Shown here: one piece after another, positions 36,884-39,847 of the stretch
How the letters are laid out: each line of letters begins with the position of its first letter
Position numbering within the stretch: the first letter of the stretch is position 1
DNA from: Salinicola aestuarinus
GTDB lineage: Bacteria > Pseudomonadota > Gammaproteobacteria > Pseudomonadales > Halomonadaceae
Length of the DNA stretch: 64,000 nucleotides
Direction of reading: 5' to 3'
NCBI RefSeq assembly: GCF_003206645.1
Contig: NZ_PZJP01000001.1
Location: 1 to 64,000, forward strand
Program-made: the position numbers and the translations under genes
Notes under the pieces: generated by a model
What the model was told of the DNA's origin: nothing
Database searches by the model: none
The model's input: only the letters and a program-made list of their open reading frames with translations

Positions 36884-37645
36884 ATGACGATTGCCAGCGA
36901 CAGCGGACAGGGCAGGCCCACTCTGGTACTGATGCATTTTTTCGGCAGTTCCCACCATGAGTGGCAAGAAGTGATCGACGATCTCGAACCTGACATCCGT
37001 GTCGTCACGCTGGACATGCCGGGGTTTGGCGCTGCCAGTGACGTGCCGGGGTTCGACGGCGTGTCGATGACCCGCCACGTCATCACGCACATCGAAGCCG
37101 CGGGGCTTACCGACGTGGTGCTGGTAGGCCACTCCTTTTCCGGCCGCATCGCCATGACCGTCGCCGCCGAACAGCCGGACTGGCTGCGGGCACTGGTACT
37201 GATCGCTCCCTCGCCGCCCGGGCCCCAGCCGGTGAGCGACGAGGAGCAGCGCTTTCAGCTCGATTTCGACTTCAGCGAGGCCCAGGCCAGGGAATTCATC
37301 GACGGCGCCTGCCGCGTAGCGCTCGATCCAGCGCGCCACCGGCAGGCCGTCGAGGATGCAGTCAACGCCAACCCGTCGGCGTGGCGCGCCTGGCCCAGCG
37401 AGACCTACGCCGAGGACTGGCGCGAACGCGTGGGCCAGCTGAGTCTCCCGAGCTGGGTACTGGTCGGGGACGGTGATCCGTCGCTGCCACCCTCGGTGCA
37501 GCGCGAGTCCGTCATGCCACACCTGAGCAACGGCTCTCTCGAGATCTACCCCGGTTACGGCCATCTGCTGCCGATGGAGATGCCGGAAACCCTGGCCGAG
37601 CGCCTCAACGCCATCGCCGCCCAGGCCGCTTCCGGCCGCGTCTGA
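36884..37645 (+). CDS. Alpha/beta-fold hydrolase
   Basis: A 253-residue serine hydrolase. The oxyanion segment is HFFGSS near residue 18, the nucleophile elbow LVGHSFSG near residue 80, the acid is in GDGDPS and the catalytic His in YGHLLPMEMPE near the C-terminus. AGGAGG lies 7 nt before the ATG at 36884, which I prefer to the ATG at 36815 that has no ribosome site. The substrate is unknown. Convergent with the aconitase-X-like gene, with a CGCCGGCG inverted repeat between them. Confidence 0.87.
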   Translation: MTIASDSGQGRPTLVLMHFFGSSHHEWQEVIDDLEPDIRVVTLDMPGFGAASDVPGFDGVSMTRHVITHIEAAGLTDVVLVGHSFSGRIAMTVAAEQPDWLRALVLIAPSPPGPQPVSDEEQRFQLDFDFSEAQAREFIDGACRVALDPARHRQAVEDAVNANPSAWRAWPSETYAEDWRERVGQLSLPSWVLVGDGDPSLPPSVQRESVMPHLSNGSLEIYPGYGHLLPMEMPETLAERLNAIAAQAASGRV

Positions 37646-37660: not shown

Positions 37661-38659
37661 CTAACTCGCCGGCGATACGGCGGCCCGGATCATCGGCGCC
37701 CGTCCCGTGAGCGCCGCACAAAGGCCGAACCATTCGGGTACCTCGTACCACAAAGCGCCGTCGCCATCCTCCAGGCGCAGCCAGGCCCCGCCGCCGTCAG
37801 GTAACGTGGGCGATCTCTCCCTGACCGCACCGAATGCCGCCAGCGCAGTCGATCTCGTCTCGCCAGCCGCGCCGTCGAATGTCGTCGGTACCGCAACCCG
37901 AGCGCCGAGCGCCGCCAGCCGCGATAGCGCCGTCTGGCTGCCTTGCCCCGCGGTCTCACCGCCGGGAACGCTCTCACCGAGATGCACCCCAAGCACGTCG
38001 ACGAGATGCCCCACATCATGCAGCGCCGCCAGACGTATCAGGATCTCCATCGCCGCCCGCGTCCCGGCGCCTTCGTTACCGTCCAGTCGGTCACGGTCGC
38101 GTGACGACAGCGTCACCGCATCGTTGGCGGCCTCTCGCGCCGCCGACTCGAACGCCAGCGCCCCGCCGCCGGTGACGTTGGCGAGCCCGGCGAGCCGGGG
38201 ACCGGTGAGTATCAGCCGTGCATCCGCCTCTAGCGTTAGCGTGTGGGAAGAGGCCGCCAGCGCGAAGTGCAGGGAATCGAGCACCACCAGAGCCGGGCCC
38301 CGTTCGCGCAATGTGCGCGCAACCAGTACCGCCAGCGCGATCGACAGATCGATGCGGTCGAGCACGATCAGCGCCGGTGCCACATCTGACTCGATCAGGT
38401 CGAGCAGCGCCGCGGTGACGGCGTCCGCCTCTGCCGCAAGCGCCTCTCCCCCCGCGCCGGCAGCGATCAACAGCGCCCGCTGCGCGAGCGTCTCGCCGAA
38501 GGCGACGTGGTGTGGCGCGCTCACCCGAGCCGAGCGCCGATCGACCTGCGTCGAGAGATCCAGCCGGGACACGCTCAAGGTGCGTCCGGTGGCGTGCACG
38601 ACCACGCCCCGCCCCGAAGCCGGTGGCGTGAGCATCAGTGATTCGAGACGGCGTGTCAC
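37661..38659 (-). CDS. Aconitase-X-like protein, swivel domain plus truncated catalytic part
   Basis: A 332-residue protein of unusual build. Residues 15-130 resemble the AcnX small swivel domain (DUF126): DRRSARV...HHVAFGETLAQRALL, then LIESDVAPALIVLDRIDL. Residues 183-265 resemble the start of the AcnX large subunit (DUF521): RLDGNEGAGTRAAMEILIRL and GARVAVPTTFDG. The large subunit is normally about 400 residues, so its C-terminal two thirds are missing, and only one Cys remains (near 313). AcnX enzymes dehydrate hydroxyproline or mevalonate phosphate. Activity here is doubtful. The start is GTG with AAGGA 9 nt upstream. Assigned by motif reading only. Confidence 0.55.
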   Translation of the reverse strand: MTRRLESLMLTPPASGRGVVVHATGRTLSVSRLDLSTQVDRRSARVSAPHHVAFGETLAQRALLIAAGAGGEALAAEADAVTAALLDLIESDVAPALIVLDRIDLSIALAVLVARTLRERGPALVVLDSLHFALAASSHTLTLEADARLILTGPRLAGLANVTGGGALAFESAAREAANDAVTLSSRDRDRLDGNEGAGTRAAMEILIRLAALHDVGHLVDVLGVHLGESVPGGETAGQGSQTALSRLAALGARVAVPTTFDGAAGETRSTALAAFGAVRERSPTLPDGGGAWLRLEDGDGALWYEVPEWFGLCAALTGRAPMIRAAVSPAS

Positions 38660-38794
38660 GATGGGGCTTCCTTGATTCAGTCGTCGGCGATGTCGCTTCC
38701 GCCAGGAGCGTCACGCATCGGCGCACGCAGCCTGCGGCAATCTCAACGATACGCTAGCATGCGTCGTCTTCTAGCACTCGAACGGGGGAGCGAC

Positions 38795-39847
38795 ATGACC
38801 TACCGCGTCGCCATCAACGGCTATGGCCGCATCGGCCAGAGCGTACTGCGGGCGCTGGTCGAGCGACCGGAACTGCCACTCGAAGTCGTCGCCATCAATG
38901 AGCTCGCCGATCTCGATACCCTCGCCTACCTGACCCGCCACGATACGACCCACGGCCGCTTCCCAGGCCGCGTCGAGACCCGGGAAGGCAAGCTTGAGAT
39001 CGACGGCCGACCGATATCGGTGTTCGCCGCCGCCGAGCCCGCAGACCTCGACTGGCAGGCAGCCGGGGTCGACCTGGTGCTCGAGTGCTCCGGCAGTTTC
39101 AAGGATCGCGCCACCGCCGAACATCATCTGGCGGCGGGTGCGCCACGCCTGCTCTTCTCGCAGCCGGCCGAGGCGGACGTCGATGCCACCGTGGTCCATG
39201 GCGTCAATCACGACGTGCTTCGCCCCGAGATGCGCATCGTCTCGGCGGCCTCCTGCACCACCAACGCACTGATCCCGATTCTCACGGCGCTCGACGCGGC
39301 GTTTGGCGTCGAGCACGGCGTCACCACCACCATCCACTCGGCGATGAACGACCAGCCGGTGATCGACGCCTACCACCACAGCGACCGGCGGCTGACCCGC
39401 TCGGCGCTGCAGTCGATCATTCCGGTGGATTCCGGACTCGCCCGCGGCATCGGCCGGCTGATGCCGCATCTCGCCGAGCGTTTCGAGTGCCTGCACGTGC
39501 GGGTGCCGACGATCAATGTCTCCGCCATGGACCTGGCGATCACCCTGGGCCGCGACGTGACCGCCGCCGAGGTCAACGCCTGCCTGCGCCGGGCCAGCCT
39601 TGCCGGCTTCGCCGGGGTGCTCGGCTACACTGACGAGCCGATGGTCTCGGTCGACTTCAACCACGATTCACGCTCGGGTATCGTTGATGCTACCCAGACC
39701 CGCGTGGCCGGCGGCCGCCTGCTCAAGGCGCTCTGCTGGTTCGACAACGAGTGGGGGTTCGCCAACCGCATGCTCGACGTCGCCCGCCACTGGCTCGAAC
39801 TCCCGTCGCCCTCCGTCCCACTCCATCGCAAGGAAAGGATCTTATGA
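38795..39847 (+). CDS. epd: Erythrose-4-phosphate / glyceraldehyde-3-phosphate dehydrogenase
   Basis: NAD-dependent phosphorylating-type aldehyde dehydrogenase fold of 350 residues. The Rossmann motif is [10 protein letters not shown] (7-16), the catalytic Cys154 is in ASCTTN and the His in TTIHSAMND. Segments such as IHSAM.DQ.VIDAYH and [10 protein letters not shown] resemble E. coli Epd more than GapA, and the position before pgk is that of epd. GGGGGAG precedes the ATG at 38795; the frame is open 41 codons further without a ribosome site. Its role may be pyridoxal phosphate synthesis or glycolysis/gluconeogenesis. Confidence 0.9.

Follow-up and report, generated by a model that had tools for sequence, protein, structure and literature searches.

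Members of the aconitase superfamily commonly consist of four domains, and in the type-I form of aconitase X (AcnX) these are arranged in the order 4-linker-1-2-3, with the swivel domain placed first (PMC8184944). Domain 4 is there assigned to residues 1–149, the linker to residues 150–156 and domain 1 to residues 157–336 (PMC8184944). Among the open-licence papers listed in our literature searches, none dealt with a truncated form of AcnX in its title or in the opening of its abstract. In this work, we describe a short AcnX gene from the salt-loving bacterium Salinicola aestuarinus, which is present in a stretch of 64,000 nucleotides that is referred to below as the window.

The short gene occupies positions 37661–38659 on the minus strand and it encodes a protein of 332 amino acids from a GTG start. 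A ribosome-binding site, AAGGAAG (38667–38673, minus strand), is read directly 7 bases 5′ of this codon and the ORF is open through all 332 codons, as the first-pass annotation of this stretch had noted in describing a gene with a good ribosome site and no internal stop. A scan for a promoter and terminator of this gene gave no match. Its divergent neighbour is an epd/gap-type dehydrogenase gene (38795–39847, plus strand), whereas on the other side it converges with an alpha/beta hydrolase gene (36884–37645, plus strand; start codon presumed), whose stop codon is 15 bases from that of the AcnX gene. An antisense ORF of 322 codons (37707–38675, plus strand) covers nearly the whole AcnX gene in the window.

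Domain content and lost active-site residues

The two Pfam families of concern here are PF04412 (AcnX) and PF01989 (AcnX_swivel_put). Residues 183–264 of the window protein match positions 2–81 of the 400 positions in the AcnX profile with a score of 40.4 bits, which is over the cut-off of 31.5, and residues 37–115 match the swivel profile with an E value of 8e-5 and a score of 22.8 bits, under its cut-off of 27. Both families are matched at E<0.1 by all 11 of the short forms that we have identified in this genus, the best values being 1e-23 and 9e-28. When the profile of the short family was compared with that of full-length AcnX, the probability was 100 (E 1.2e-68) and the alignment reached the TGRAP motif and a few residues beyond. 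In the domain-order comparison, the short-family profile gave an E value of 2e-46 with a weak match for the tail (i-Evalue 0.4), and in the family membership test the window protein scored 85 bits vs 700. Based upon its match to both PF04412 and PF01989, the window gene is an evolutionary member of the AcnX superfamily, and these comparisons confirm the presence and order of the two domains, as well as the truncation, to a degree well beyond chance. An AlphaFold2 model from an alignment of two sequences only (the window protein and that of S. halophilus CECT 5903) had a pLDDT of 36 and a pTM of 0.29, values too low for the model to be of use in judging the swivel beta-barrel and the Rossmann-like fold of domain 1.

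The window protein thus contains domain 4, a linker and domain 1, and domains 2 and 3 are absent. Domain 4 corresponds to residues 1–138 (38246–38659, minus strand), the linker of 45 residues to positions 38105–38239 (minus strand), and a shrunken domain 1 to residues 186–324 (37688–38104, minus strand), close to the end of which is the C-terminal motif LCAALTGRAP (37694–37723, minus strand). The chain numbering appears to be 10 ahead of that used in PMC8184944, as judged from Asp203 and Ile206, and on this basis the window protein ends about 10 residues short of the end of domain 1. As the first-pass annotation had described, the swivel domain precedes no more than the beginning of the AcnX catalytic part, and the Pfam matches, which are limited to the initial fifth of the catalytic profile, bear this out. 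It had also considered the domain order to be new. However, swivel-first is the usual type-I order (PMC8184944) and the structure 7cnq aligns with the window protein across both the swivel and the domain-1 parts; hence, the unusual feature of this protein is its truncation and not its order.

The window protein is 65% identical to the short form from genome G010 and to the nine other short forms its identity is 39–41% in one alignment and 37–39% in another. All 11 of these proteins end soon after the LC tail motif. The segment extending from a conserved GA or GG to the LC motif is 52 residues long in the full-length enzyme from the Salinicola genome G001. Nine of the 11 short forms have 24 residues there, whereas the window protein has 38 and that of G010 has 36. 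Because an internal deletion of equal size is shared by nine of the 11 short forms, including the divergent G007, a single event is favoured and the truncation probably arose once; the clade formed by the window and G010 would then have gained residues later, or may have undergone a deletion of its own.

The consequences for the active site were examined using 15 residues named in PMC8184944. All 15 are kept in each of the four full-length rows (G001 and three canonical enzymes), whereas Asn233, Cys273, Glu292, Asn294, Cys508, Cys510, Lys530 and Tyr534 have no counterpart in any of the 11 short forms, among them the Fe-S cysteines (Cys273, Cys508, Cys510) whose loss had been anticipated in the first-pass annotation. 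In the row for G007, the Cys508 and Cys510 columns are occupied by stray tail residues, none of them a cysteine. Ten of the 11 also lack Ser293, the exception being G010, which has a serine in that column within a gappy stretch. In the window, domain 1 lacks equivalents of Asn233, the Fe-S ligand Cys273 and Glu292-Ser293-Asn294, and the domain 4 equivalents of W35, S70, C71 and T72 are replaced. For the six residues of domain 4 and early domain 1, none is retained in the window, all six are in G009, and some are in the other short forms. When residues 240–596 of the G001 protein were used as a query for domains 2–3 against the 18 Salinicola genomes, only two were matched, viz. G001, by its own gene, and G013, by a canonical enzyme at another place; at E 0.001, none of the 11 genomes with a short form gave a match. 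A search of the own genome for the missing part of AcnX likewise gave no match elsewhere at E 0.001, and a split enzyme with its remainder encoded elsewhere is unsupported by these searches.

Distribution of the short and full-length genes

A protein search of 58 genomes, including the own genome, found a match in 15. A match to epd is present in all 18 Salinicola genomes (in pieces in G014), and beside it 11 genomes contain the short form (G000, G002, G003, G006, G007, G008, G009, G010, G011, G012 and G017), one (G001) contains the only full-length AcnX at this locus, of 596 residues, one contains pieces only, and five (G004, G005, G014, G015 and G016) show no AcnX match. Apart from the window, the short form occurs in the assembly of S. 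halophilus CECT 5903 (L017) and in nine further genomes. The gene order fba, lrgA, lrgB, hydrolase, (AcnX), epd, pgk is kept in 17 of the 18 genomes, and epd is the divergent neighbour in each of the 12 that have an intact AcnX gene at the locus. The suggestion that this gene is not a recent deletion in one strain is upheld by this survey of homologues, as the short form is common to 11 of 18 genomes of the genus and most pairs are under purifying selection (see below). The pieces of AcnX were seen beside epd in G013 (L066 6740–6897), where the stretch retrieved contained the AcnX piece, epd and pgk, but no match to the hydrolase, lrgAB or fba; other genes, one of them DNA methyltransferase-like by eye, lie in their place. 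In G014 (L067 6902–9213; completeness 93%), the matches to epd and pgk are broken into several pieces that lie in different frames, possibly through sequencing error.

When the short-family profile was compared with 275 genomes of the family, 26 were matched, of which 13 are Salinicola. In 10 of the 13 others the genes were inspected, and these are full-length (561–615 residues) and located mostly in clusters that by eye resemble those for hydroxyproline catabolism. The matches outside this inspected set are from G099, G075 and G245. In G099 and G075, frames of about 158 residues are matched in the swivel part only and are possibly small subunits of type-II AcnX, and in G245 (completeness 86%) the matches are in two short frames, possibly of a broken gene. 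A second group of full-length AcnX in the family (L098 5692–7539, L103 6500–8269) has an enlarged, dissimilar linker, and its clusters contain transporter-like and proline-racemase-like genes by eye. In larger samples, the AcnX family was matched in 16 of 369 genomes of the class and 44 of 398 genomes of the phylum, with 10 and 37 of these, respectively, over the cut-off. Except for Salinicola G000 and G008, the matches over the cut-off span nearly the entire profile; those below it (6 in the class and 7 in the phylum) are weak, cover positions of about 280–390 and come from frames of 471–841 residues. No truncated AcnX was thus found outside Salinicola in these 369 and 398 genomes, which are samples of larger groups.

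The genomes G001 and G009 provide information on how the two forms are related. Over 15 kb, examined in windows of 300 bases, they are mostly 91–99% identical, but their identity drops to 52–85%, with an unaligned stretch, at about 7,800 to 9,600 of L020, a region that takes in the 3′ half of AcnX along with a portion of the hydrolase gene. Identity dips again at 2,100–3,000 of L020. The full-length protein of G001 and the short form of G009 have the same linker and are about 97% identical over residues 1–235, the switch point being inside the AcnX gene near codon 210–240. The full-length and short 3′ halves have thus been exchanged, most simply by homologous recombination. As to the direction of the exchange, the indications differ. 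In a tree of the N-terminal half, G001 and G009 branched outside the other ten (support 80/93, below the starred level), and this placement, together with the intact active-site residues of that half, argues for its origin in a full-length lineage; the deletion of shared size, in contrast, speaks for a short form that is long established in the genus.

Selection on the short genes and the linker

The dN/dS ratios (Nei-Gojobori) for the short forms range from 0.28 to 0.58 in nine pairs, vs 0.08–0.23 for epd. For comparison with a null expectation, the same substitutions were placed randomly by base type in 1000 replicates per pair, and the number of amino-acid changes was below the null in eight of nine pairs at P<0.01; the pairs overlap in their species, and recombination has an effect on those that include G009. 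The less affected pairs, each consisting of two short forms, are the cleaner G017/G003, G000/G010 and G006/G002, for which none of the 1000 replicates was as low, and G006/G011 (P 0.009). In contrast, the pair G002/G008 did not differ from the null (P 0.105). All six gaps in the four pairs that were aligned as DNA are multiples of three. The open reading frame alone is weak evidence, since only 0.3–4.6 stops are expected per pair under the null. The third-position G+C of AcnX is below that of epd in 10 of the 11 short-form genomes. In most pairs, the short genes are under weak purifying selection.

The linker is 45 residues long in all 12 genes of the locus (the short forms and G001), and in this form it is absent from the canonical enzymes aligned. 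A search of the 275 family genomes with the linker recovered the 12 known genes, all at E<2e-23; another 23 matches, with E values of 0.008–0.1, were taken as noise; its sole match in the PDB had an E value of 0.5. The pooled pN/pS of five pairs was 0.17 for the linker, compared with 0.42, 0.39 and 0.59 in the other regions. In three of six pairs the linker was more conserved than the rest of the protein (P 2.5e-7, 0.0015 and 0.00017), but not significantly so in the other three (P 0.81, 0.17 and 0.46).

Interpretation and relationship to known systems

The reading that we prefer, and to which we give about even chances, is that this gene is a genus-specific, non-catalytic two-domain derivative of type-I AcnX, kept for a putative binding role. 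Homology, synteny and the deletion of shared size suggest that a single lineage was stripped of domains 2 and 3 together with the Fe-S part of domain 1; most of the Salinicola species sampled now have this short allele. With neither the Fe-S ligands nor the Lys/Tyr of domain 3, the short form should be incapable of the known reaction, and its dehydratase activity would have been lost, to judge from published mutants. In most pairs weak purifying selection retains the gene, acting in some pairs most strongly on the 45-residue linker, and the swivel barrel and the half of domain 1 may now form a putative binding protein whose contact surface would be the linker. Against a function are the weakness of the constraint, with dN/dS above that of epd, the absence or breakage of the gene in six of 18 genomes, and the low third-position G+C in 10 of 11 genomes, as in a fast-drifting gene. 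The pair G002/G008, the three of six pairs in which the linker does not stand out, the scan that gave neither promoter nor terminator and the poor structure model also count against it.

The main rival, which has a substantial chance of being correct albeit short of even, is that the short gene is a slowly decaying remnant, without useful function since its truncation, in which shortness, a high G+C content and only mild deleterious effects or a partial constraint against misfolding would keep the frame open. The absent and broken genes and the dN/dS values fit this explanation, as do the eroding catalytic residues of domain 4, the long branches of the window pair (1.01) and of G007 (0.59), the few stops expected under the null, and the pair G002/G008, which does not differ from the null. 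Against simple decay are the shortage of amino-acid changes in the four cleaner pairs, the gaps in phase in the pairs checked and a linker of constant length in 12 of 12 genes. We consider it possible, though doubtful, that the gene is a pseudoenzyme in transition, whose linker gained a binding role in a full-length enzyme located outside the hydroxyproline operon, so that the catalytic half became dispensable and was lost, with short and full-length alleles still being exchanged between species by homologous recombination.

A minimal enzyme, in which domain 4 and half of domain 1 catalyse an Fe-S-independent reaction on a proline-like compound, appears improbable. Ser70 of domain 4 is the general base in AtAcnX (PMC8184944) and a serine is present in this column in seven of 11 short forms, but it is gone from the window, G010, G003 and G017, the Fe-S ligands and the Lys/Tyr are missing in all 11, and the gene is outside any hydroxyproline cluster. 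The retention of parts of domains 4 and 1 would suit a regulatory paralogue, as proposed in the first-pass annotation, or a dominant-negative one, acting on a full-length AcnX of the same genome; this is very improbable and that proposal is not sustained, as domains 2–3 are unmatched at E 0.001 in all 11 short-form genomes. Hardly any credence is given to an assembly or annotation artefact, or to the antisense ORF being the true gene despite its 322 open codons in the window, as the short form recurs in the S. halophilus assembly and nine further genomes, and of the 10 other short forms only G007 has this antisense frame open over the length of the gene, with G010 coming close.

If the short gene is indeed a conserved two-domain form without the Fe-S site, occupying a locus at which a closely related species has the full-length allele, it would provide a natural experiment in the change of an Fe-S enzyme to a non-enzyme, and a warning against labelling such short genes as dehydratases. 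If it is only in slow decay, it would be an ordinary remnant.

Among the known systems, the small subunit of type-II AcnX (TkAcnX S, 7cnr_B; AF0055, 2hi6) is a stand-alone swivel domain that is matched by the short-family profile, but it works with a separate large subunit (PMC8184944), whereas the search of the 11 genomes with a short form turned up no remainder of a large subunit. The likeness to type-I AcnX (NCBIfam NF051439; PF01989 and PF04412) is greater, as the swivel domain is first and is followed by domain 1, with the tail of the short form aligning to the TGRAP motif of domain 1 and clear homology over both parts. Unlike type-I AcnX, the short form ends near the end of domain 1 without domains 2–3, it has an internal deletion that removes the Fe-S ligand region, its linker is of 45 residues vs 7 in AtAcnX (PMC8184944), and its gene adjoins epd outside a hydroxyproline operon. 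The full-length AcnX of G001 has the same position and linker as the short forms but differs from them in its 596 residues and in keeping all 15 active-site residues, on account of which it is probably active.
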